From NCBI RefSeq assembly GCF_006912135.1, contig NZ_VIRS01000017.1, positions 1 through 64,000 of the forward strand: a stretch of DNA of 64,000 nt. Reading direction: 5' to 3'. The notes beneath the pieces were generated by a model that had not been told where the DNA came from, searched no databases, and worked only from the letters and a program-made list of their open reading frames with translations. A program made the position numbers and the translations under genes. Every line of letters begins with the position of its first letter. Positions within the stretch are counted from its first letter, which is position 1. Origin of the DNA: Cryptosporangium phraense (GTDB lineage: Bacteria; Actinomycetota; Actinomycetes; Mycobacteriales; Cryptosporangiaceae). This document shows positions 2,373 through 53,652 of the stretch, piece after piece.

Positions 2373-3017
2373 ATGATGTTGGTCAATCGGGTGTTTGCGG
2401 CGATCTACGATCCGTTCCTCGCGCTGGGCGAGCGGCGGAGCATGGGGCAGCAGCGGGCCGGGCTGCTCGCCGCGGCCAAGGGCGACGTCCTGGAGATCGG
2501 GGCGGGCACCGGCCTCAATCTGCGCCACTACCCGGACACCGTGAACGCGCTGACGGTATCCGAGCCGGACGCCGCGATGCGAGCCGTGCTCCAGCGCCGC
2601 GTCGCCGGGATCGCGACGCCGTTCGCGGTGACCGTGTCGCCCGCACCGGCCGAAGCGCTGCCCTTTCCCGACGGCGTGTTCGACGTCGTCGTGTCGACGC
2701 TGGTGCTGTGCACGGCGGGCGACCCGGCCGCGTCCCTGGACGAGGTCCGGCGGGTGCTGCGGCCGGGCGGCCGGCTGTTGCTGATCGAGCACGTGCGGGG
2801 CGCGGACGGGTCGAGGCTGGCCCGCCGTCAGCGGCGGCTCGCCCGGCCGTGGCGGGCGTTCGCCGGCGGCTGCCGGTGCGATCAGGACACGGTCCGGTTC
2901 CTGTCCGACGCCGGGTTCAGCGTCGCCTCCCTGCGGACGGAGTCGTGGGCCGGGATGCCGGCGATCGTGTCGCCGCTGGTGGTCGGGTCGATCGGCGACG
3001 ACGTATGGGCGTGTTAG
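2373..3017 (+). CDS. Class I SAM-dependent methyltransferase (UbiE/type 11-like)
   Basis: Soluble methyltransferase of 214 residues. The SAM-binding motif I is VLEIGAGTGLNL near residue 32; motif II/III follow as PFPDGVFDVVVSTLVLC and LRPGGRLLLIEH. The C-terminal half contains ARPWRAFAGGCRCDQDT, resembling small-molecule or quinone/phospholipid methyltransferases that end in a Cys-rich GGC motif. Start ATG at 2373 is preceded by CAGGAGA at 2364-2370, a good ribosome site. It stands alone: 113 bases separate it from the TVP38 gene, and the next gene is convergent. The substrate cannot be assigned. Confidence 0.85.
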   Translation: MMLVNRVFAAIYDPFLALGERRSMGQQRAGLLAAAKGDVLEIGAGTGLNLRHYPDTVNALTVSEPDAAMRAVLQRRVAGIATPFAVTVSPAPAEALPFPDGVFDVVVSTLVLCTAGDPAASLDEVRRVLRPGGRLLLIEHVRGADGSRLARRQRRLARPWRAFAGGCRCDQDTVRFLSDAGFSVASLRTESWAGMPAIVSPLVVGSIGDDVWAC

Positions 3018-3026
3018 AACGGCCTG

Positions 3027-4064
3027 CTAGATCAGGCCTAGGCGGATGCCGGTGGCGGCGGCCGCGGCCCGGGACGGCTGGTCGAGCTTGCGCCGGATGT
3101 TCGCGACGTGCCGATGCACGGTGTGCGCGCTCAGCACGAGCTCGGAGGCGATCTCGGCGTCGTTGAAGCCGCGCGCCACCAGCCGCAGAACCTCCCGCTC
3201 CCGCTCGGTGAGCACCCCGGTCTCGACGGCGGCCTCGGGCGGAGCATCGGCGCCCAGGAACGGGAGCAGCGCGTCCAGGACCGGAGCCGGATCCCCCAGC
3301 CAGGGCGGGTGGACGTTGCCGTCCAGCGGCACCAGGCGCGCCCCCGCGATCCCGGCCGCCACCTCGCGGCCCAGTGCGAACGGGATCGCCCGGTCGTCCC
3401 GCCGGTGCAGCACCAGCGTCGGCGCCTCGATCGACCCCAGCACCCCGCGAATGTCGACGTCGTACACGGCCGCCAGCACCGCCGCCGCTGTCTCGGCGTC
3501 GGCCGCCGACCGCTGCAGCCGGACGAAGTCCTCCCGCACCGACGCGGGCTCACCCGGCATCCAGACGTCGGCCAGCACCCGCGACCCCGCGCCCCAGTGC
3601 GCCCGGATCGTCGCCAGGATCGCCTCCCGCAGTGCGTCCGGCGCGGTGCGGGCGCCCTCGGCGTATCCGCCGAACACGGCCAGCCGGCTCACCCGGCCGG
3701 GATGCGCGGCCGCGTAGCCGAGCGCCGCACCGGCGCCGATCGAGAACCCGAACAGCGCGGTCGTCTCGAGCCCGAGCCCGTCGATCAACGCCGACAACAC
3801 CGCGGTGTCGTGCGCGACGCTCGGCGCCACCGCCCCGACCAGCTCCGGACGATCGGACAGCCCGCACCCGAGCCGGTCGTACCGGACCACCCGGTGCGTG
3901 CGGGCCAGCGCGCCCAGGAACGTCCGGTACTCCGGCGACTCCCAGTCGAGCTCGAGATGGCTGATCCACGGCGTCGGCAGGACGAGCGGCGGCCCGCTGC
4001 CGACCTCGGCGTACGCGATCCGACCGCCGGGGACGGCGACGAACCCGATCCGTTGGTCGGTCAC
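3027..4064 (-). CDS. Alpha/beta hydrolase fused to a LuxR-type DNA-binding domain
   Basis: 345-residue fusion. Residues 1-270 are an alpha/beta hydrolase: nucleophile elbow GFSIGAG with Ser108, RYDRLGCGLSDRP after the oxyanion region, an acidic residue in the LVLHRRDDRAIP strand and a His in GNVHPPW. Residues about 283-340 are a LuxR/GerE helix-turn-helix, starting LTEREREVLRLVARG and containing SAHTVHRHVANIRRKL. Known relatives combine an adenylate cyclase or hydrolase-like sensor with this HTH; here the hydrolase probably senses or cleaves a small ligand. The GTG start at 4064 overlaps the Nudix stop by four bases (GTGA), so it is translated with the Nudix gene upstream of it. Confidence 0.85.
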   Translation of the reverse strand: MTDQRIGFVAVPGGRIAYAEVGSGPPLVLPTPWISHLELDWESPEYRTFLGALARTHRVVRYDRLGCGLSDRPELVGAVAPSVAHDTAVLSALIDGLGLETTALFGFSIGAGAALGYAAAHPGRVSRLAVFGGYAEGARTAPDALREAILATIRAHWGAGSRVLADVWMPGEPASVREDFVRLQRSAADAETAAAVLAAVYDVDIRGVLGSIEAPTLVLHRRDDRAIPFALGREVAAGIAGARLVPLDGNVHPPWLGDPAPVLDALLPFLGADAPPEAAVETGVLTEREREVLRLVARGFNDAEIASELVLSAHTVHRHVANIRRKLDQPSRAAAAATGIRLGLI

Positions 4065-4525
4065 TCCAGCGCCTCCGCGAGCCGGTCGAGGAACGCCCGC
4101 TGGCCCTTGATCAGTTTCTCCCGGGCGGTGTCCAGATCGAACCACTCGACCCGGTCGAGCTCCGGGAACTCCTGCATCCGCCCGGAGCGCGGTGGCCACT
4201 CGGTCGTGAACGTGCCCGGCACGACGTCGTCGGGGGAGAGGTCACCCTCGATCGCCCAGACCGTCACGGTCTTGCCGCCGGACTGCTTCACGTCGCCGAG
4301 CGGCAGCAGCGCGCCGTCCGGGGCCGGCAGCCCGAGCTCCTCGGTGAACTCGCGCCGGGCCGCGGCCTCGGCCGTCTCGGACTCGTCGTACTCGCCCTTC
4401 GGCACCGACCAGGCGGCCTCGTCCTTGCGGGCCCAGAACGGGCCGCCCATGTGCCCGAGCAGCACCTCCGGCCGATCCCCGGAGACCCGGTAGACCAACA
4501 AACCCGCACTACGCCTCGCCGCCAT
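4061..4525 (-). CDS. Nudix hydrolase (Ap4A-hydrolase/MutT-like)
   Basis: 154-residue single-domain pyrophosphohydrolase. The Nudix box is complete at residues 44-66: G44, five residues, E50, seven residues, then REFTEELGL with the metal-binding glutamates. Proteins with this architecture (NUDIX plus WSVPKGEYD approach and a C-terminal EWFDLDTAREKL helix) hydrolyse dinucleoside polyphosphates or oxidised nucleotides; the substrate is not settled by sequence. The ATG at 4525 is the first of a two-gene minus-strand unit, with the hydrolase-LuxR protein immediately downstream. It is divergent from the LacI operon, 174 bases away. Confidence 0.9.
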   Translation of the reverse strand: MAARRSAGLLVYRVSGDRPEVLLGHMGGPFWARKDEAAWSVPKGEYDESETAEAAARREFTEELGLPAPDGALLPLGDVKQSGGKTVTVWAIEGDLSPDDVVPGTFTTEWPPRSGRMQEFPELDRVEWFDLDTAREKLIKGQRAFLDRLAEALE

Positions 4526-4607
4526 GCCCGAACGCTAGCCCGTAACCGGCCCCCGCACCGGACGACCACGTGGCGGACCCGGCCCCCATCGCCGGTGAAA
4601 GTGATCC

Positions 4608-7962: not shown

Positions 7963-8841
7963 ATGGCTACCGACACGCTGGCGCCTCCGCTGCGAGCCCG
8001 GGTGGTCACCGTGGAGACCGTCGATCGGCGGGTCACGATCTTCAACCGCATCTGCGTCGGGGTGCTGATCGCGTTCGCGCTGCTGTGGCTGGTCCCGATC
8101 CTGTGGGCGCTGGACACCGCGCTGAAACCGAACGCCGAGACCGTCAACACCACCTGGTGGATCGAGAACCCGACGTTCGCGGCCTTCGGCCGCGTCTTCA
8201 CCGACACCGACATGCTGCGGTGGTGGGCGTCGACGTTCATCGCGTCGGCGTTGTCGACGGTGCTGACCGTGATCACCGCGAGCCTGGCCGCGTTCGCGCT
8301 GTCGCGGATGCGGTTCCGGTACCGCAACCTGGTGTTCTGGTTCATCCTGGCCGGGATCATGGTGCCGTCGCAGGTGCTGATGGTGCCGCAGTTCCGCGAG
8401 TTCCAGTCCCTCGGCCTGCTGAACACGTTCTGGGCCGTCGCGCTGCCGCAGGCGCCCACCGCTATCGCGGTGTTCATCTTCAAGCAGTTCTTCGACGGGT
8501 TGCCCGCCGACCTGGAGGAAGCGGCCCGCGTCGACGGGGCGTCGTTCTTCCGGATCTACCGGCAGATCGTGTTGCCGCTGTCCCGGCCGGCCGTCGCGGC
8601 GGTCGCGATCTTCTCGTTCGTGTGGGCCTGGAACAGCCTGCTGTGGCCGCTGCTGGTGCTGACCAACCCGGACCTGATGACGATCCCGGTGGGGCTGGCG
8701 ACCGTGCAGGGCGCGTTCGGCATCCGGTACGCCGACACGATGGCGACCGCGGTGTTGGGCGCGGTGCCGCTGGTCGCGCTGTTCCTGCTGTTCCAGCGCA
8801 ACATCGTCGAGGGCATCGCCGGGACGGGGATCAAGGGATGA
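7963..8841 (+). CDS. Sugar ABC transporter permease, MalG/UgpE type
   Basis: 292-residue second permease of the CUT1 importer, with six membrane segments and the EAA loop LEEAARVDGASFFRIYRQIVLPL near residues 185-208. The ATG at 7963 is preceded by a strong GGAGG (7951-7955) that overlaps the end of the previous gene. Its stop overlaps the GH51 start by four bases (ATGA), so transporter and glycosidase are translationally coupled. Confidence 0.93.
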   Translation: MATDTLAPPLRARVVTVETVDRRVTIFNRICVGVLIAFALLWLVPILWALDTALKPNAETVNTTWWIENPTFAAFGRVFTDTDMLRWWASTFIASALSTVLTVITASLAAFALSRMRFRYRNLVFWFILAGIMVPSQVLMVPQFREFQSLGLLNTFWAVALPQAPTAIAVFIFKQFFDGLPADLEEAARVDGASFFRIYRQIVLPLSRPAVAAVAIFSFVWAWNSLLWPLLVLTNPDLMTIPVGLATVQGAFGIRYADTMATAVLGAVPLVALFLLFQRNIVEGIAGTGIKG

Positions 8842-10352
8842 TCAGGGCGTCGCTGGCGCTGGACCCGGCGTTCACGGTCGGGGACGTCGATCCGCGGTTG
8901 TTCGGGTCGTTCGTCGAGCACATGGGCCGGTGTGTGTACACCGGCATCTACGAGCCGGGTCATCCCACTGCTTCTGATGCGGGCTTTCGGGGAGACGTGC
9001 TCGACCTGGCCCGGGAGCTCGGGGTGCCGCTGATCCGGTACCCCGGGGGGAACTTCGTGTCGGGGTACAAGTGGGAGGACGGCATCGGGCCGTCGGCCGA
9101 CCGGCCGACCCGGCTCGACCTGGCCTGGCGGTCGCTCGAGACCAACCAGGTCGGCGTCGACGAGTTCGTGCCCTGGGCGTCCGGCCTCGGGGCCGAGACG
9201 ATGATGGCGGTCAACCTGGGCACGCGGGGGATCGACGCGGCCCGGGACCTGATCGAGTACTGCAACATCCCGGGCGGCACGTACTGGTCGGATCTGCGCC
9301 GGAAGAACGGTGCTCTGTCTCCCTACGGGATCCGCACGTGGTGTCTCGGGAACGAGATGGACGGGCCCTGGCAGATCGGCCACAAGACCGCGTACGAGTA
9401 CGGGCGGCTGGCGTCGGAGACCGCGAAGGCGATGCGGCTGGTCGACCCGTCGATCGAGCTGGTCGCGTGCGGGAGCTCGAACTCGTCGATGCCGACGTTC
9501 GGGTCCTGGGAGGCGACGGTCCTGGGGGAGGCGTACGACCAGGTCGACTACGTCTCGATGCACGCGTACTACGAGCAGCGCGGCGACGACCGGGACAGCT
9601 TCCTCGCGGCCAGCGTCGACATGGACCGCTTCATCGACGCGGTGGTCGCGACCGCCGACCACGTCCGGGCGGTGAAACGGCGCTCGAAGCGCGTCGACAT
9701 CTCGTTCGACGAGTGGAACGTCTGGTACCTCAAGAAGTTCGCCGGCGAGGCGTCGCTGTCGATCACCGAGGCGCCGGCGCTGATCGAGGACGTCTACTCG
9801 GTGACCGATGCCGTCGTCGTCGGGAACATGCTGATCAGCCTGCTCAAGCACGCCGACCGGGTGAAGATCGGGTGCCAGGCCCAGCTGGTGAACGTGATCG
9901 CCCCGATCAGGACGACGCCCGGCGGGCCGGCCTGGAAGCAGTCGACGTTCCACCCGTTCGCGCTGACCTCTCGCTACGGGCGGGGGACCGTGCTGCGGGT
10001 CGAGCAGCGGTCGCCGCTCTACGAGACGAAGTGGCTGGGGGAGGTGCCCCTGCTCGACGCGGTCGCGGTCCAGGGCGAAGACGGCGTCTCGATCTTCGCG
10101 GTGAATCGCTCCCAGACCGAGCCGATGGTGGTGGACGTCGACCTGCGGGCCTGGCCGGGCTACCGGGTCGAGTCCCACACCGCGATCGCCGACGACGACC
10201 CGGACGCGGTGAACACGGCCGAGGACCCGGAGAGGGTGGTGCCGAAGTCGCTGAAGGTTCCTGACGTCGACGGCGGCCGCGTGGCGTTGGAGCTCCCGCC
10301 GTTGTCGTGGAACCTCGTCCGGCTGGGTCGATCAGGATCGGCGAGCCACTGA
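8838..10352 (+). CDS. GH51 alpha-L-arabinofuranosidase
   Basis: 504-residue intracellular retaining glycosidase that removes alpha-L-arabinofuranosyl groups from oligosaccharides. The catalytic acid/base is E173 in GNEMDGPW and the nucleophile is E292 in FDEWN; the N-terminal LFGSFVEHMGRCVYTGIYEP and RYPGGNFVSGY stretches are GH51 hallmarks. Length fits the family, with a C-terminal beta-sandwich. There is no signal peptide, so it acts on sugars imported by the coupled ABC transporter. It is the last gene of the operon and is followed by a long hairpin. Confidence 0.95.
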   Translation: MIRASLALDPAFTVGDVDPRLFGSFVEHMGRCVYTGIYEPGHPTASDAGFRGDVLDLARELGVPLIRYPGGNFVSGYKWEDGIGPSADRPTRLDLAWRSLETNQVGVDEFVPWASGLGAETMMAVNLGTRGIDAARDLIEYCNIPGGTYWSDLRRKNGALSPYGIRTWCLGNEMDGPWQIGHKTAYEYGRLASETAKAMRLVDPSIELVACGSSNSSMPTFGSWEATVLGEAYDQVDYVSMHAYYEQRGDDRDSFLAASVDMDRFIDAVVATADHVRAVKRRSKRVDISFDEWNVWYLKKFAGEASLSITEAPALIEDVYSVTDAVVVGNMLISLLKHADRVKIGCQAQLVNVIAPIRTTPGGPAWKQSTFHPFALTSRYGRGTVLRVEQRSPLYETKWLGEVPLLDAVAVQGEDGVSIFAVNRSQTEPMVVDVDLRAWPGYRVESHTAIADDDPDAVNTAEDPERVVPKSLKVPDVDGGRVALELPPLSWNLVRLGRSGSASH

Positions 10353-46747: not shown

Positions 46748-47461
46748 TCAGCGGCGGCTCCAGGGCAGTTCGCCGGTTTCGACCACTTGCTGGGCCACCT
46801 CCCGCAGCTTGACGTTCAGATGCTGGGACGCCTCCCGCAGCAGCGTGAAACCGTCGTCCGCGGGGACCTTGCGCTGCGCCATCAGCACGCCGATGGCCTG
46901 GTCGATGACCGTGCGGGAGCGGATCGCCTCCCGGAGCTGCTCGGCCAGGTCACGGTGGCGGAAGAACGCGGCGGCGACCTGGCTGGCCTGTCCGGCGTGG
47001 CTGGCCAGCACCTGGGCCAGCGCGACGGCCTCACCGGTGAACGCGTCGGGATCGCGCGAGTACAGGTTCAGCGCGCCGAAGTTCACACCCTCGGAGTGCA
47101 GCGGGAGCGACACCACGCTCCGGGCGCCGAACGCCACCGCCCGTTCGACGTAGGCCGGCCAGCGGCCCTCGGTCGCCAGGTCGCGGACGCGGAACAGGTT
47201 GCCGGTGCGGGTCGCGTCCAGGCACGGGCCCTCACGTTCGGCGAACTGCATCTCGTCGAGTTCCCTTGACCACTCGTCGCTGAACGCGACGGCGGCCGGA
47301 CGCCCGTCCTGCAGGGCGGTGATCGACGCGGCCTCCGCGCCCGGCACGATCCGGGCCGCGATGCGGGTGACTTCCTGCAGCGTGCTGATCAGGTCGGTCT
47401 GGGAGAGAACCAGACCGCTGAGCGCCATGAGCTCCCGCAGCTGCTCGTCCGAGAGTTCCAT
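46748..47461 (-). CDS. GAF-ANTAR RNA-binding regulator
   Basis: 237-residue transcription antitermination regulator. GAF sensor at about residues 20-165 (EREGPCLDATRTGNLFRVRDL, SVVSLPLHSEG, GALNLYSRDP); ANTAR RNA-binding domain at 170-228 (LREAIRSRTVIDQAIGVLMAQ, DGFTLLREASQHLNVKLREVAQQVV). ANTAR proteins bind paired hairpins in target mRNAs. ATG at 47461 starts 14 bases after the STAS gene, so the two are co-transcribed, a common actinobacterial stress-response pair. Confidence 0.93.
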   Translation of the reverse strand: MELSDEQLRELMALSGLVLSQTDLISTLQEVTRIAARIVPGAEAASITALQDGRPAAVAFSDEWSRELDEMQFAEREGPCLDATRTGNLFRVRDLATEGRWPAYVERAVAFGARSVVSLPLHSEGVNFGALNLYSRDPDAFTGEAVALAQVLASHAGQASQVAAAFFRHRDLAEQLREAIRSRTVIDQAIGVLMAQRKVPADDGFTLLREASQHLNVKLREVAQQVVETGELPWSRR

Positions 47462-47475
47462 GCGGTTATTTTGCT

Positions 47476-47793
47476 CTATGCCGCACCGCCCGGCTCGATG
47501 GCGAACAGCCGGTCGTCGCCGGTGGCCGTCAGCACCCGGCGGACCAGCGGCGACGGGCAGCGCAGGAGCAGGTCGGCGGCCGCGGCCCGGGCCAGCACCA
47601 GCGCCCGGATCCCGGCCGAGTTGATGAACCGGACCCCGGCCAGGTCGAGCACGACCAGGCCCGGGTCCACCGCGCGCACGACCCGTTCCACCAGCGCGGG
47701 GAGATGGGGAGCGGTCTCGTGGTCGAGGTCGCCCTCGATCCGGATCGACGGATACGGGGCACACACCGAGAGAGTCAACGAAAGTGCGGACAC
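47476..47793 (-). CDS. STAS-domain anti-sigma-factor antagonist
   Basis: 105-residue SpoIIAA-like protein. The STAS core is SIRIEGDLDHETAPHL and VVLDLAGVRFINSAGIRALVLA, where the Ser in INSAG is the phosphorylatable position. Such proteins release sigma factors by binding kinase-type anti-sigma factors; none is encoded next door. GTG at 47793. First gene of the pair with GAF-ANTAR. Confidence 0.92.
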   Translation of the reverse strand: MSALSLTLSVCAPYPSIRIEGDLDHETAPHLPALVERVVRAVDPGLVVLDLAGVRFINSAGIRALVLARAAAADLLLRCPSPLVRRVLTATGDDRLFAIEPGGAA

Positions 47794-47858
47794 TGGTCCC
47801 CTCGCAACAACCCGAGGCTCTGGTCCGAACCGGTACCAACTTTATCCGGTCGCGGCCG

Positions 47859-48545: not shown

Positions 48546-48989
48546 ATGCTGGTGCAGGACGTCATGACCAGATTTCCGGCGTGTATTCACCTGGGGGCCG
48601 ATATCCGCCGAGCGGCCGAATTGGTGAGCATTTCGCAAGTCAGCGAGCTGATGGTGCTCGACCACGACGACGAGTTCGTCGGCGCCCTGTCCGAGGGCGA
48701 TCTGATCCGCGCGATCCTGCCGACCTGGGACGAGAGCCTGCGCGCGGGCGGCTCGCTGAACGACGCGTTCGGCGACCTCGCCCGGAAGGCCCGCGACCTG
48801 GCCGGGCGCCCGATCGATCCGCTCGTCGTGCGGAACGCGATCACGCTCCGGCCGACCGACGAGGTGGCCAGGGCGGCCGTGGTCATGACCGAGAAGCAGA
48901 TCCGCCGGCTGCCGGTCGTCGACGGGCGCAAGCTCGAGGGCACGGTCGCCCGGGCCGACATCTGCCGCGCCGTCATCTACTACGCCTGA
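48546..48989 (+). CDS. CBS-domain pair protein
   Basis: 147 residues made of two CBS motifs (MLVQDVMTRFPACIHLGADIRRAA and RNAITLRPTDEVARAAVVMTEKQIRRLPVVDG), a Bateman module that binds adenine nucleotides. No other domain. ATG at 48546; G-rich tract GGGGG lies just upstream. Its stop overlaps the start of the FHA-heme-reductase fusion by one base (TGATG), so it is probably its regulatory partner, sensing energy or NAD state. That link is inference from gene order. Confidence 0.92.
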   Translation: MLVQDVMTRFPACIHLGADIRRAAELVSISQVSELMVLDHDDEFVGALSEGDLIRAILPTWDESLRAGGSLNDAFGDLARKARDLAGRPIDPLVVRNAITLRPTDEVARAAVVMTEKQIRRLPVVDGRKLEGTVARADICRAVIYYA

Positions 48990-51900
48990 TGGCCCGCGTA
49001 GAGCTGGTGGTGACCAACCGGCGGACGGGCGCGGTCACCGAGCACACCGGCGAACTCCCGCTGACGATCGGCCGGGACGCGGCGCTCAGCGCGGTCGCGC
49101 TCGACGACCGCTCGGTCTCCCGCCGCCACGCCCGCCTCGAACTCGACGGCATCGACCTCGTCGTCGTCGATCTGAAGAGCTCGAACGGGACGTTCGTCGA
49201 CGGCGAGCGGGTCGAACGGCGGGTGCTGCGCGGGACCGACCACCTGCGGGTCGGCAACAGCGACGTGGCCTGGACACTCACGGTCGAGGACGAGTCCGAC
49301 CGGACGATCATCGGCGACATGACGATCCTGGCGCCGTTCCGGGTGCCGTCCCGGGCGACGACCGGCCCGGTGCGGGTGATCTCCCCGGCCCGCCAGGTCG
49401 TCGAGAAGGCCGAGGCCTACAACCGGCAGCACGGCCACGAGCTCGACGGATTCCTCTCGATCGAGCACGGCTTCCTGCCGGTCGAGCCCCCGCTGCTCGC
49501 GCTGCCGCCCTCCCACCAGGCCTGGGACGCGCTCGTCGACCGGCTGCCCGACCTCTACGCGAACCTCGGTATGCGCCGCGAGTTCGACCGGCTGCCGGTG
49601 CTCGACGCGTCGGCCGAGGCGCTGCCCGACCGGTACGTGCTGCGGGCGTCGGCGATGCTCGGCGTGTTCGCGCACGCCTACCAGTACGTCCAGACCGACC
49701 CGCCGGCCACGCTGCCGCCGAGCATCCTCGAGCCCTGGCGGCAGGTGTCGCGCCGGCTGGGCAAGGACGTGCCGTCGGTCTCCTACATCGACCTGTTCTT
49801 CTACAACTGGAGGCTCCGCGATCCGGCCGGCCCGCGCCGCCTGGACAACCTCGAGCTGCTCGTCCCGGCCTGGCGCAACCGGGCCGAGAAGATCTTCTAC
49901 CTGGTCACGACCGAGTTCGCGATGGAGCTGACCCCGCTGCTCGACGCGATGCTGCGGGCCCAGGACGCGGTGCTGGTGGAAGACCGGGACGCGCTCACCG
50001 CCGCGCTGCTCGTCATGCTCGAGCGGCTGCAGCACGTCACGCAGGAGATCTACCCGCAGATCGACCCGAACCCGCTGTCGTCGAACCACCTCGACCTGGT
50101 GCTCTGGGCCAAGACCGTCGGGACGTCCGGGGTGCCGATCTTCGACGGGGCGCCGAGCCCGGCCGGCACCGCGCAGCCGCAGATCCACGCGCTCGACGCG
50201 TTCTTCGGCCGCGCGTCCTACGCCACCACGGTCGGGCAGCAGAGCCTCTCGCTGCGCAAACAGATGCCCCGGCACTGGCGCGAGCTGATCGACGCGCTCG
50301 GCCAGGTCTCGGTGCGCCAGTTCGTCGAGAAAGACCGTGCGCTGCGTGGCCTGTACGCGGCCGTGCTCGACTCGTACCTCGGCGACCGGGGCTGGATGGG
50401 GCTGCACCGGATCAAGGCGTACGGGTTCCTCGAGGTCGCGTTCAAGGTCGGCCGGTCGGTCACCACCGGCGCGAAGTTCACCGGGCTGTTCCGCGACAAG
50501 ACCTGGGAGGCGATCGACGCCGAGCTGGCCGAGGTCCGCGACGAGCGCTGGCCGGCCGCCAACCAGCAGGTCTACACCGGACGGGTGCGGCGCGGGATCA
50601 CGACGACCGACCCGGACTCGTCGGCCTGGACGACGCACCTGCGGCTCGACGTGGCCGGCCAGGGCATCCGTCACCGCCCCGGCGACCGGCTCGGCGTCCT
50701 GCCCGAGAACGACGACGCGCTGGTCCGGGCCACCTTGCGGGCGCTGCGGGCCACCGGCGACGAGCTCGTCCCGCTGACTGCCGACTGGCAGGAGGCGATC
50801 CGGTTCCGGGCCGGGCACGAGGACGGCGCCGAGGTGCTGCCGCTGAAGACCCTGCTGACGTTCGGCCGGATCCGCCCGGTCGGCCGGACCACCGCGAAGC
50901 GTCTGCTCGGGTTCTCGGCCGCCGGGGCGCTCGACCGGATCGTGTCGGCCCGGATGGAAGACCAGTGGGAGCTGTGGGACCTGCTCGACCTGGTCCGCTC
51001 GGCCGGGTACGACGTGACCCGGCTGTGGTCGGCGGGCGCCGACGAAGCCGAGAGCATCGGCCGGATCGTGCCGCCCGAAGTGTTCCGGCTGTACTCGATC
51101 GCGTCCGCGGCCGACGGCCCGGCCGAGAGCATCGACCTGGTGGTCGGCGGGCTCACCTACGACACCCCGCGCACCACGTACTCGTACGAGCGGCAGCGGG
51201 CCGGCAGCGCGTCGCACTTCCTGCGCCGGATGACCACCGAGGTGCGCTACCGCGACAAGCCGCTGTCGCTGACGATCGTGCCCACGCCGAGGTTCCGGCT
51301 CCCGGCCGACCCGGCCACACCGGTCGTGATGTTCGCGGCCGGCTCGGGCATCGCGCCGTTCCACGGCTTCGCCGCGGCCCGCTCCGGCGGTCCGGGCGCG
51401 AACACGCTGTTCCTGGGCCTGCGCCGGCCCGAGGATTTCGTCGACCCGTCGGTGTTCGAACGCCTCGCGGCCGAGGGACGGCTCGAGCTGTACGCCGCGT
51501 TCTCCCAGGCCGACAAACGGCTGCGGTTCGACGTCGGCAAGTACGTGGTGGAGGACGGGACGCGGCAGCGCGTCGACCGGTTGATCTCCGAGCAGGCCGA
51601 CGGCCTGCGGGCCGCGGCCGGTGACGGCGGGCACCTGTACGTCTGCGGGAGCGCCGGCTTCGCCGGGTCGGTCCTGGCCGCGCTGAAGAACGTCGGTCTG
51701 GACGTCCGGCAGCTGATCGCCGAGGGACGCCTCGGGCTGGACATCTTCACCACCTACCGCGGGCACGCGCAGCAGGGCAGGCAGTACGACATCTCCGCGC
51801 TGATCGACCGGAACAGCCCTTCCGCGGGGTATTGGATGGTGGTCAGCGGCAAGGTCTACGACGTCTCGGAGTTCATCCACCAGCACGTCGGTGGGCCGCA

Positions 51901-52780
51901 GATCATCCGGCACTACGTCGGGATGGATGCGACCAGCGCGTACCAGGGCGTGCTGCACCACGTGAACTCGGAGGTCGACGCGCAGCTGAGCCTGTACGAG
52001 CTCGGGCACATGCGCCGGCTGTCGTTCGGCGACCGGTGGGGGGTCGTGCTCACCGCCGAGGGCCTGCGTTTCGAGCGGCTGGAGAACCTGTTCACGGCCT
52101 GGGTCCGGTACGTGTACCTGGTCGTCGCGATGGAGAACGCGCTGGCCAACGACTACGGGTTCGCGTCGGCCGAGGCGACCGCGGGCCAGCGCGGGCCGAC
52201 GCCGTTCTCGCTGCAGTTCCTGGTCGAGGCGCACCGCCGGTTCCTGGGCAGCTACCTCGACGGGCTGTTCGACGACGACCTGGCCGCGCTCTGGCGGGCC
52301 ACGGTCGGGTTCTGCGCGCCGTCGACCGACGTGCGGGGGCTCGGGCTCACGCTCGAGACGCTCCGCGACCAGCCGGCCTACCGGCTGGCCCGGGAGTCGG
52401 TGACGTACCTGCGCGGGCTGCTGACCGGTGACCTGAGCGCGTCCGACCGGCATCGCATCGAGGGGCTGGCCAAGGGCTACGCCGAGGCCGACCAGGCCGT
52501 GCTGCGGGCGCTGAAGGCCGCGTTGCGCGACGGGATCCTCGCGTTCGAGCAGCACGAGGCCGCGGTCGTCGAGCGGGCGTCGGACCGGCTGCTGGGGGCG
52601 ATCCGGGGCGCGGTCGACGCGGTCGGCGAGTACTACCGGCGGGTGGCCGCGCTGACCGAGCGGCACGGTCTGACGCTCTCGTCGTTGCCGCCGGGGCTGG
52701 TCGAGGAGCCGATCCCCGAGGACCGGGGAATTCCGGGCCACGGGACGCCTGTCACGATCCCGCCGGAGCCGGTGTCCTAG
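48989..52780 (+). CDS. FHA / IDO-like heme / diflavin-reductase (FNR) / cytochrome b5 fusion protein
   Basis: 1263 residues, apparently a complete electron chain in one chain. Residues 1-100: FHA phosphothreonine-binding domain (IGRD at 27-30, SRRHARL at 44-50, SSNGTF at 64-69). About 150-520: resembles indoleamine 2,3-dioxygenase; HGFLPVEPPLLALPPSHQ matches the IDO start, and H473 in GLHRIKAY aligns by eye with IDO's proximal heme His. 525-915: FAD/NADPH reductase module as in cytochrome P450 reductase (RLYSIAS at 700-706, GSGIAP at 785-790). 930-1010: cytochrome b5 domain (HVGG with H966; H990/H991 second ligand). 1025-1240: helical C-terminus, unassigned. ATG overlaps the CBS stop by one base. 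The reaction is unknown; NADPH-driven tryptophan-like oxygenation is a guess. Confidence 0.8.
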   Translation: MARVELVVTNRRTGAVTEHTGELPLTIGRDAALSAVALDDRSVSRRHARLELDGIDLVVVDLKSSNGTFVDGERVERRVLRGTDHLRVGNSDVAWTLTVEDESDRTIIGDMTILAPFRVPSRATTGPVRVISPARQVVEKAEAYNRQHGHELDGFLSIEHGFLPVEPPLLALPPSHQAWDALVDRLPDLYANLGMRREFDRLPVLDASAEALPDRYVLRASAMLGVFAHAYQYVQTDPPATLPPSILEPWRQVSRRLGKDVPSVSYIDLFFYNWRLRDPAGPRRLDNLELLVPAWRNRAEKIFYLVTTEFAMELTPLLDAMLRAQDAVLVEDRDALTAALLVMLERLQHVTQEIYPQIDPNPLSSNHLDLVLWAKTVGTSGVPIFDGAPSPAGTAQPQIHALDAFFGRASYATTVGQQSLSLRKQMPRHWRELIDALGQVSVRQFVEKDRALRGLYAAVLDSYLGDRGWMGLHRIKAYGFLEVAFKVGRSVTTGAKFTGLFRDKTWEAIDAELAEVRDERWPAANQQVYTGRVRRGITTTDPDSSAWTTHLRLDVAGQGIRHRPGDRLGVLPENDDALVRATLRALRATGDELVPLTADWQEAIRFRAGHEDGAEVLPLKTLLTFGRIRPVGRTTAKRLLGFSAAGALDRIVSARMEDQWELWDLLDLVRSAGYDVTRLWSAGADEAESIGRIVPPEVFRLYSIASAADGPAESIDLVVGGLTYDTPRTTYSYERQRAGSASHFLRRMTTEVRYRDKPLSLTIVPTPRFRLPADPATPVVMFAAGSGIAPFHGFAAARSGGPGANTLFLGLRRPEDFVDPSVFERLAAEGRLELYAAFSQADKRLRFDVGKYVVEDGTRQRVDRLISEQADGLRAAAGDGGHLYVCGSAGFAGSVLAALKNVGLDVRQLIAEGRLGLDIFTTYRGHAQQGRQYDISALIDRNSPSAGYWMVVSGKVYDVSEFIHQHVGGPQIIRHYVGMDATSAYQGVLHHVNSEVDAQLSLYELGHMRRLSFGDRWGVVLTAEGLRFERLENLFTAWVRYVYLVVAMENALANDYGFASAEATAGQRGPTPFSLQFLVEAHRRFLGSYLDGLFDDDLAALWRATVGFCAPSTDVRGLGLTLETLRDQPAYRLARESVTYLRGLLTGDLSASDRHRIEGLAKGYAEADQAVLRALKAALRDGILAFEQHEAAVVERASDRLLGAIRGAVDAVGEYYRRVAALTERHGLTLSSLPPGLVEEPIPEDRGIPGHGTPVTIPPEPVS

Positions 52781-52785
52781 GGGGC

Positions 52786-53652
52786 ATGACCACCGACGCG
52801 TTCGTCGCCCACCGGAGCCTGCTGTTCACGGTCGCCTACGAGATGCTCGGCTCGGCCGCCGACGCCGAGGACGTCGTGCAGGAGACCTGGCTGCGGTGGG
52901 CGTCTTCGTCCGCCGATGTCCGTGACCCGCGGTCCTACCTGGTGCGGATCGTCACCCGGCAGGCGCTCAACCGGCTGCGGACGCTGGCCCGGCGGCGCGA
53001 GGACTACGTGGGGGAGTGGCTCCCCGAGCCGCTGCTGACCAGCCCCGACGTCGCCGACGACGTCGAGTTGGCGGAGAGCGTCTCGGTGGCGATGCTGACC
53101 GTGCTCGAGACGCTGGGCGCGGTCGAGCGGGCGGTGTTCGTCCTGCGCGAGGTGTTCGACACCTCGTACGACGAGATCGCCGAGGCGGTCGGGAGGACGC
53201 CCGCCGCCGTGCGCCAGATCGCCCACCGCGCCCGCGATCACGTGGCCGCGCGCCGTCCGCGGGTGCGGGTCAGCCGGGCCGAGCAGGACGCGGTCGTCGA
53301 GCGGTTCCTGGCCGCCGTCCGCGGCGGCGACCTGCAGGAATTGCTGGACGTCCTGGCTCCGGACGTCGTGGTCGTGGCCGACGGCGGCGGCGTGGTCACC
53401 GCGGCGCGTCATCCGGTGGTGGGAGCCGAGCGGGCGGCCGCGTTCCTGGCCATGCTGCCGAAGGTGGCGGACGACTTCGCGGTCGCGGCGACCGTGGTGA
53501 ACGGTGGGCCGGCGATCCGGATCGATCTGAACGGGGCGCTCGATGCGGTGGCGAGCCTGGTGATCGAGGGCGGCCGGATCACCCACGTGTACGCGGTCCG
53601 CAACCCGGCGAAACTGTCCCGCCTGACGGAAGAATCCCACCTCAGTCGCTGA
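52786..53652 (+). CDS. ECF sigma factor with SnoaL-like C-terminus (ECF41/SigJ type)
   Basis: 288-residue ECF sigma factor. Region 2 is at residues 8-75 (LLFTVAYEMLGSAADAEDVVQETWLRW, the sequence that melts the -10 element), region 4 at about 110-160 (LGAVERAVFVLREVF, YDEIAEAVGRTPAAVRQIAHRAR). Residues 165-288 form a SnoaL/NTF2-like domain containing DLNGALDAVASLVIEGGRI near the end, the hallmark of ECF41. In ECF41 the C-terminal domain acts as a built-in regulator. It starts 5 bases after the heme fusion gene, so it may be co-transcribed with it. The usual carboxymuconolactone decarboxylase-type partner is absent. Confidence 0.92.
   Translation: MTTDAFVAHRSLLFTVAYEMLGSAADAEDVVQETWLRWASSSADVRDPRSYLVRIVTRQALNRLRTLARRREDYVGEWLPEPLLTSPDVADDVELAESVSVAMLTVLETLGAVERAVFVLREVFDTSYDEIAEAVGRTPAAVRQIAHRARDHVAARRPRVRVSRAEQDAVVERFLAAVRGGDLQELLDVLAPDVVVVADGGGVVTAARHPVVGAERAAAFLAMLPKVADDFAVAATVVNGGPAIRIDLNGALDAVASLVIEGGRITHVYAVRNPAKLSRLTEESHLSR

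Follow-up and report, generated by a model that had tools for sequence, protein, structure and literature searches.

The window analysed here is the whole stretch from position 1 to 64,000 (64,000 nucleotides) of contig NZ_VIRS01000017.1 of Cryptosporangium phraense, and our subject is a gene in it that encodes, in a single stop-free frame of 1263 residues, an FHA domain, an indoleamine 2,3-dioxygenase (IDO)-like domain, an FAD/NAD(P) reductase, a cytochrome b5 and a C-terminal helical domain, in that order (Table 1). A Pfam scan of the protein gave five domain matches that all exceeded their gathering scores, namely FHA (9.9e-15), IDO PF01231 (1.5e-31, 110 bits against a cut-off of 26), FAD_binding_1 (residues 523–599, 7.3e-10), NAD_binding_1 (residues 781–894, 7.8e-6) and Cyt-b5 (2.5e-13). 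The first-pass annotation, made from the sequence alone, had named these same domains and placed the IDO-like part within residues 150–520; the profile search recovered every one of them, with the PF01231 match at residues 157–458. A chance open frame was considered and ruled out, because the identical part order occurs in relatives across three phyla; the minus strand also carries a mirror frame. The fold and the modules are already known, and it is their assembly that is new to us; as the annotation had supposed, no description of this layout was found in the open-access literature searched, a collection of partial coverage.

Table 1. Positions of the fusion gene, its parts and its upstream partner in the window
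Feature	Positions	Strand	Basis
CBS partner gene, 147 aa, two CBS domains; stop overlaps fusion start (TGATG)	48546..48989	+	CBS match 3.6e-19, two stretches
Fusion gene, FHA/IDO-like/FAD-NAD(P) reductase/cytochrome b5/C-terminal helical, 1263 aa	48989..52780	+	Frame, Pfam, conserved relatives
FHA domain, residues 26–89, GR, SRRH and SSNG motifs	49064..49255	+	Pfam, motif alignment
IDO-like heme domain, residues 125–525 (Pfam IDO 157–458)	49361..50563	+	Pfam, PDB matches, model, tree
W373-x-K375-x-V377, invariant 37/37	50105..50119	+	Family alignment
H473, candidate proximal heme ligand	50405..50407	+	Sole invariant His of the IDO core, 37 members
CysJ/P450-reductase-type FAD and NAD(P) module, residues 520–925, without flavodoxin (FMN) domain	50546..51763	+	Pfam, NCBIfam, PDB matches
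FAD motif RLYSIAS, residues 700–706	51086..51106	+	Sequence, alignment
Cytochrome b5 domain, residues 945–1007; candidate axial ligands H966, H990	51821..52009	+	Pfam, both-His motif 37/37
C-terminal long-helix domain, residues 1017–1263	52037..52777	+	Model; without known relative

Family distribution, CBS partner and history

Six peptide patterns were used to look for relatives in a collection of 84,980 species genomes, a scan whose reach is limited to close relatives. It returned 32 loci, with 31 complete genes besides that of the window that were 43–61% identical to it and came from Actinomycetota, Chloroflexota and Armatimonadota. These comprised 17 Streptosporangiaceae, 8 Micromonosporaceae, two Pseudonocardia, Trebonia, Ktedonospora (Chloroflexota; 61% in the best segment), an Anaerolineae metagenome-assembled genome (48%) and an Armatimonadota one (43%). 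Together with the window gene and L045, L046, L047, L048 and L050 they gave the 37 family members compared throughout. A fusion-gene fragment in Acrocarpospora corrugata (L033:5313-6566, a 417-aa frame with no CBS neighbour in its locus) was excluded from alignments, tree and residue counts, and the genome of Acrocarpospora catenulata holds a second long fusion-type frame of 1135 aa (G680:C93).

The family is rare in the sampled genomes. It was present in 3 of 396 genomes of the phylum sample, where a fourth held only an ordinary IDO, in 5 of 298 of the order sample (three full fusions and two IDO-b5 proteins, with two further matches that were one ordinary IDO and one weak stretch) and in two of the four genomes of the genus sample. 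The Chloroflexota sample gave 2 of 301, both already known, and nine other matches in frames of 398–512 aa. A plasmid-borne module was considered and not supported: 68 of 72,556 plasmid records matched, none over 80% of the query, and the 20 matches listed of these 68 all lay within the reductase part.

The coupling to a CBS protein, pointed out in the first-pass annotation, proved to be conserved. All 31 complete scan loci have a CBS homologue upstream of the fusion gene, within 64 bases in 30 of them and at 312 bases in L032, and a CBS profile also finds the partner beside L045, L046 and L050; the same profile found none across the 16 kb of either the L047 or the L048 locus. Counted by architecture, a CBS gene stands just upstream in 35/35 reductase-bearing members examined in comparison to 0/2 members without a reductase. 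Identities of the CBS and fusion proteins were correlated over 32 pairs (r=0.975, reached by 0 of 2000 permutations), which is expected of a unit inherited together and can also arise from shared ancestry alone. In L045 the CBS partner (8730-9596) is joined to a weak receiver-like N-terminal part.

In a maximum-likelihood tree of 50 rows the 37 IDO cores formed one clade (100/100) separate from the ordinary IDOs, which contributed 13 rows, two of them identical (12 distinct); L034 had been removed from the ordinary-IDO alignment as a duplicate of L052. Under midpoint rooting, applied for drawing only, the basal members are L047 (7658-9700, 680 aa) and L048 (7512-9512, 666 aa), which are IDO-b5 proteins without reductase or FHA, followed by the IDO-reductase-b5 proteins L045, L024, L046 and L032. 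These six members lack FHA, and the FHA-carrying rows form a 31-row clade (100/100) after them, in which 29 rows were recognised by a strict FHA motif and L050 from the displayed alignment, the strict motif having missed L025. This branching suggests that the fusion was built stepwise, with secondary loss of the reductase in L047 and L048, instead of its basal absence, as a possible alternative. Transfer between phyla is likely from the tree, because Ktedonospora branches basally in the FHA clade, next to actinobacteria and distant from the second Chloroflexota member. In L047 a gene of DyP_N type is found about 3.7 kb upstream of the one for the IDO-b5 protein.

Heme domain, redox modules and FHA domain

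Residues about 151–465 match solved IDO1/IDO2 chains in a PDB sequence search (best 1.7e-17). Structure prediction, which the first-pass annotation had proposed, recovered the IDO fold (mean pLDDT 70, pTM 0.75): Foldseek gave 155 PDB matches at E<=0.001 for the domain model, and the 50 listed were all IDO1 or IDO2, with TM scores (query) of 0.61–0.69. Among the histidines of the IDO core H473 alone is invariant (37/37), and no Cys or Tyr is invariant there; it lies within a G-x-H-R motif, close to where a predicted helix begins. This conservation makes H473 the likely best candidate for the proximal heme ligand, the position that the annotation had proposed for it.

The reductase part (residues about 532–917) matches CysJ, P450 BM3 and P450 reductase in the PDB sequence search, and among NCBIfam models those of sulfite reductase flavoproteins come closest, with scores that fall well short of the CysJ equivalog cut-offs. 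It carries the FAD RxYS and NAD GxGxxP motifs as RLYS and GSGIAP, and the Pfam scan gave no flavodoxin (FMN) match at E<=1 anywhere in the protein. An AFSR-type NADPH-site pattern is present in 31/37 members, that is, in all but four of the 35 that bear a reductase; of the six members without it two have no reductase, and the window protein and L050 read AFSQ. Both b5 heme histidines, in an HxGG-type motif, are kept in 37/37 members, counted by motif since the all-family alignment misplaces the b5 of the reductase-less L047 and L048. On this sequence evidence cytochrome b5 appears to be the most constant redox partner of the IDO-like domain, and probably its direct one, because b5 persists where the reductase is missing.

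The FHA domain of the window carries GR, SRRH and SSNG, which we take to be its phosphothreonine-binding motifs. The annotation had read this domain as a sign of control by Ser/Thr kinases. Such control is possible, but the absence of FHA from 6/37 members counts against it, as does the finding that, among the neighbour starts read, only one locus has a same-strand Ser/Thr kinase as its next gene. That kinase lies 12 bases downstream of the fusion gene of Pseudonocardia oroxyli (L049:2903-5200, in the genome of L021) and has a beta-propeller-like C-terminal part; in L024 a kinase-like protein starts directly after the fusion gene on the opposite strand.

The C-terminal domain after b5 consists of long helices, in which its model is confident, and Foldseek gave for it a best E of 0.057, with weak cytochrome b5 and generic helix matches among the 50 listed of 692. 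It holds invariant residues and ends in a PGHG tail in nearly all rows aligned.

Proposed electron route, substrate class and alternatives

The reading that we favour, on balance and with some reserve, is that of a self-sufficient NAD(P)H-driven oxygenase of the IDO fold that acts on a substrate other than plain tryptophan. The analysis establishes the domains, their order and conservation, the CBS coupling and the missing substrate-site arginine of the window protein; from these features we infer the electron route, the heme ligation, the oxygenase chemistry, the substrate class and the regulation. NAD(P)H would reduce the FAD of the CysJ-like module, from which an electron would move to the heme of cytochrome b5 and on to the IDO-type heme, whose ligand is probably H473; the latter would bind O2 and oxidise a small substrate that is probably aromatic and is unlikely to be plain tryptophan. 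The activity or the partners of the fusion protein would be set by the CBS protein, which probably senses nucleotides, and in one clade also by the phosphothreonine-sensing FHA domain. The order of the parts is compatible with the fused NAD(P)H-FAD-b5-heme chain that had been suggested at the outset.

Known systems share parts of this arrangement. In comparison to ordinary IDOs, the fusion family has the IDO fold by sequence and model and one invariant histidine as ligand candidate, but it forms a separate clade, its member in the window lacks the usual substrate-site arginine, and reductase and b5 are fused here whereas ordinary members depend on external reductants. CysJ, NADPH-P450 reductase and the reductase part of P450 BM3 show the same FAD and NAD(P) subdomains with the same RLYS and GSGIAP motifs; the fusion, however, is without the FMN flavodoxin, and b5 would take the one-electron place. 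NCB5OR, a fusion of cytochrome b5 and cytochrome b5 reductase, likewise combines b5 and an FAD reductase in one chain, but has no oxygenase domain and differs in reductase type and order. Flavohemoglobins (globin-FAD-NAD) also fuse a heme domain to its own reductase, but the fusion protein has an IDO fold in place of the globin, another type of FAD subdomain, an additional b5, FHA and a CBS partner.

The reductant of His-ligated heme aromatic oxygenases is an open problem. In PMC4191572 cytochrome b5 is put forward as the physiological reductant of IDO, still only as a suggestion, and PMC12921851 describes monooxygenase activity of human IDO as well. Heme-dependent aromatic oxygenases, which are IDO-fold relatives, act in natural-product pathways (PMC11791213, PMC12312684), and for one of them, PrnB, PMC11791213 reports that none of the redox partners tried, among them cytochrome b5 and P450 reductase, gave product. 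A natural chain of reductase, b5 and IDO-fold heme would make the reductant question directly testable, would be an IDO-fold counterpart of P450 BM3 useful in biocatalysis, and would tie heme oxidation to FHA and CBS signalling. A broader proposition is held more tentatively, as a possibility that we would not yet back: these proteins may be self-sufficient His-ligated heme aromatic oxygenases of a new class, whose IDO fold was redirected to a new substrate and acquired b5, reductase and FHA stepwise, which moved between phyla with a nucleotide-sensing CBS regulator present in every case of a fused reductase, and whose actinobacterial members mostly begin translation at a conserved AUU codon within the CBS gene (see below).

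The foremost alternative, although we regard it as unlikely, is a 2,3-dioxygenase of tryptophan (or indoleamine) that carries its own reductase. It would account for the significant PF01231 match and for the IDO fold recovered by Foldseek, and the evidence on the substrate site is divided. All 12 ordinary bacterial IDOs carry a [FY][YF]xRxR helix motif whose second arginine presumably equals human R231, which binds the substrate carboxylate. MAFFT sets this arginine opposite V377, a valine in 37/37 members inside the invariant WxKxV, whereas hhalign sets the motif opposite about residues 363–366 and the arginine opposite residue 365, where the window protein has Ser, 30/37 members have Arg and 2/37 have Lys. 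The window protein is without the usual arginine under both alignments. All 12 ordinary IDOs have a GT[GS]G motif in the C-terminal loop, where neither the window protein nor the 11 other members displayed has it; the pattern occurs elsewhere in 3/37 cores (window, L002, L050), at residues 378–381 and outside the loop in the window.

The genome of C. phraense is 99.4% complete and has one PF01231 gene, the fusion gene, along with a separate TDO, and no kynureninase was found in it (best 23 bits against a cut-off of 246). Kynureninase was searched for in 18 fusion genomes, 17 from the 31 complete scan loci and that of the window. It was just under the cut-off in G679 and G690 and a weak match in G678 and G694, and nothing convincing was found in G000, G689 and G691. 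Of these 18 genomes one, G694, additionally has an ordinary-length IDO, and one, G680, the second long frame mentioned above. Two ordinary IDOs adjoin genes read as kynurenine formamidase and kynureninase, and neither was seen among the neighbour starts read up to about 3.5 kb away from the fusion genes. Because the arginine, the GT[GS]G loop and kynureninase are missing and a TDO is present, tryptophan oxidation of the kynurenine pathway is unlikely for the window protein; elsewhere in the family it may take place. Tryptophan, the first substrate that the annotation had brought forward, is therefore doubtful for the window, while the arginine that hhalign finds at position 365 in most members keeps it in play for the relatives.

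Several points weigh against the favoured reading of an oxygenase with another substrate. The substrate-site argument depends on the alignment, so that relatives may keep a carboxylate-binding arginine, and the invariant Lys375 could do the same job. Kynureninase exceeded the cut-off in 11 of the 18 fusion genomes, which also speaks for a tryptophan dioxygenase. The canonical proximal histidine falls one residue from H473 by MAFFT and four by hhalign, beside an insertion, and the model is weak around H473 (block pLDDT means of 68 and 53); sequence alignment does not pinpoint the equivalent of that histidine. The cofactor of the window protein could be NADH, since AFSQ replaces the AFSR-type NADPH-site pattern. 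Finally, nothing that recurs next to the fusion genes, the CBS gene set aside, points to a substrate in the loci read, in which most neighbours were judged by eye from frame starts.

Less probable again is a flavohemoglobin-like detoxifier of NO or reactive species, in which an IDO-fold heme would replace the globin, be reduced by the fused flavoprotein and convert NO and O2 to nitrate. Its logic equals that of the globin-FAD-NAD(P) flavohemoglobins, and IDO-like myoglobins, as described in PMC4191572, show that a protein of this fold may bind O2 and yet be inactive on tryptophan. The fusion gene of the sister species G406 is followed by genes for an Rrf2-family regulator and a flavohemoglobin (L050:11700-13328); such neighbours, however, were seen in this one locus only among those read, a flavohemoglobin would make another NO dioxygenase superfluous, and the b5 step is left without explanation. 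Least probable is a redox or gas sensor, whose IDO heme would sense O2, CO or NO and signal through FHA and CBS while the reductase merely resets the heme, for although FHA and CBS are signalling domains and a CBS gene adjoins all 35 reductase-bearing members examined, the absence of FHA from 6/37 members, the cost of a dedicated NAD(P)H chain and the lack of any recurring output domain or regulator in the neighbourhoods compared speak against it.

Start codon and neighbouring genes

The fusion gene of the window starts with ATG, whereas the expected start codon is ATT in 27 of 32 loci (31 scan loci and the window; for example L004:9992-9994). The ATT stands exactly where P. oroxyli has ATG, overlaps the end of the CBS gene, and is followed by no in-frame ATG, GTG or TTG up to codon 6 in the 27 loci. 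The overlapping His codon is CAT in 27/27, in comparison to 73 CAT among 944 His codons in the fusion genes of this group. Codon counts were made on 26 of the 27 ATT loci, with L003 omitted. In these, codons 4–19 have a coding-like GC content by position (0.71/0.50/0.91), and a GTG at codon 20 is kept in 26/26. Synonymous and non-synonymous changes in codons 4–19 numbered 24 and 46, in comparison to 21/54 and 12/49 in the other frames, which is no clear excess, and synonymous changes were also fewer than inside FHA (32/26); both results count against an AUU start. Initiation at a conserved AUU codon within the CBS gene is nevertheless the simplest reading of these sequences and a probable one; the alternatives are a +1 frameshift where the CBS gene stops and initiation at the codon-20 GTG.

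Many recurring short neighbour frames were taken for mirror frames of high-GC DNA. In L046 an AMP-binding gene of the acyl-CoA synthetase type (3016-4551) begins 3 bases after the IDO-reductase-b5 gene. The window itself encodes a GAF-ANTAR regulator (46748-47839), a STAS-domain protein (47476-47793) and an ECF-type sigma factor (52786-53652) around the fusion gene; these flanking regulators do not recur except in L025, where a sigma factor 63% identical and a regulator 34% identical lie nearby.

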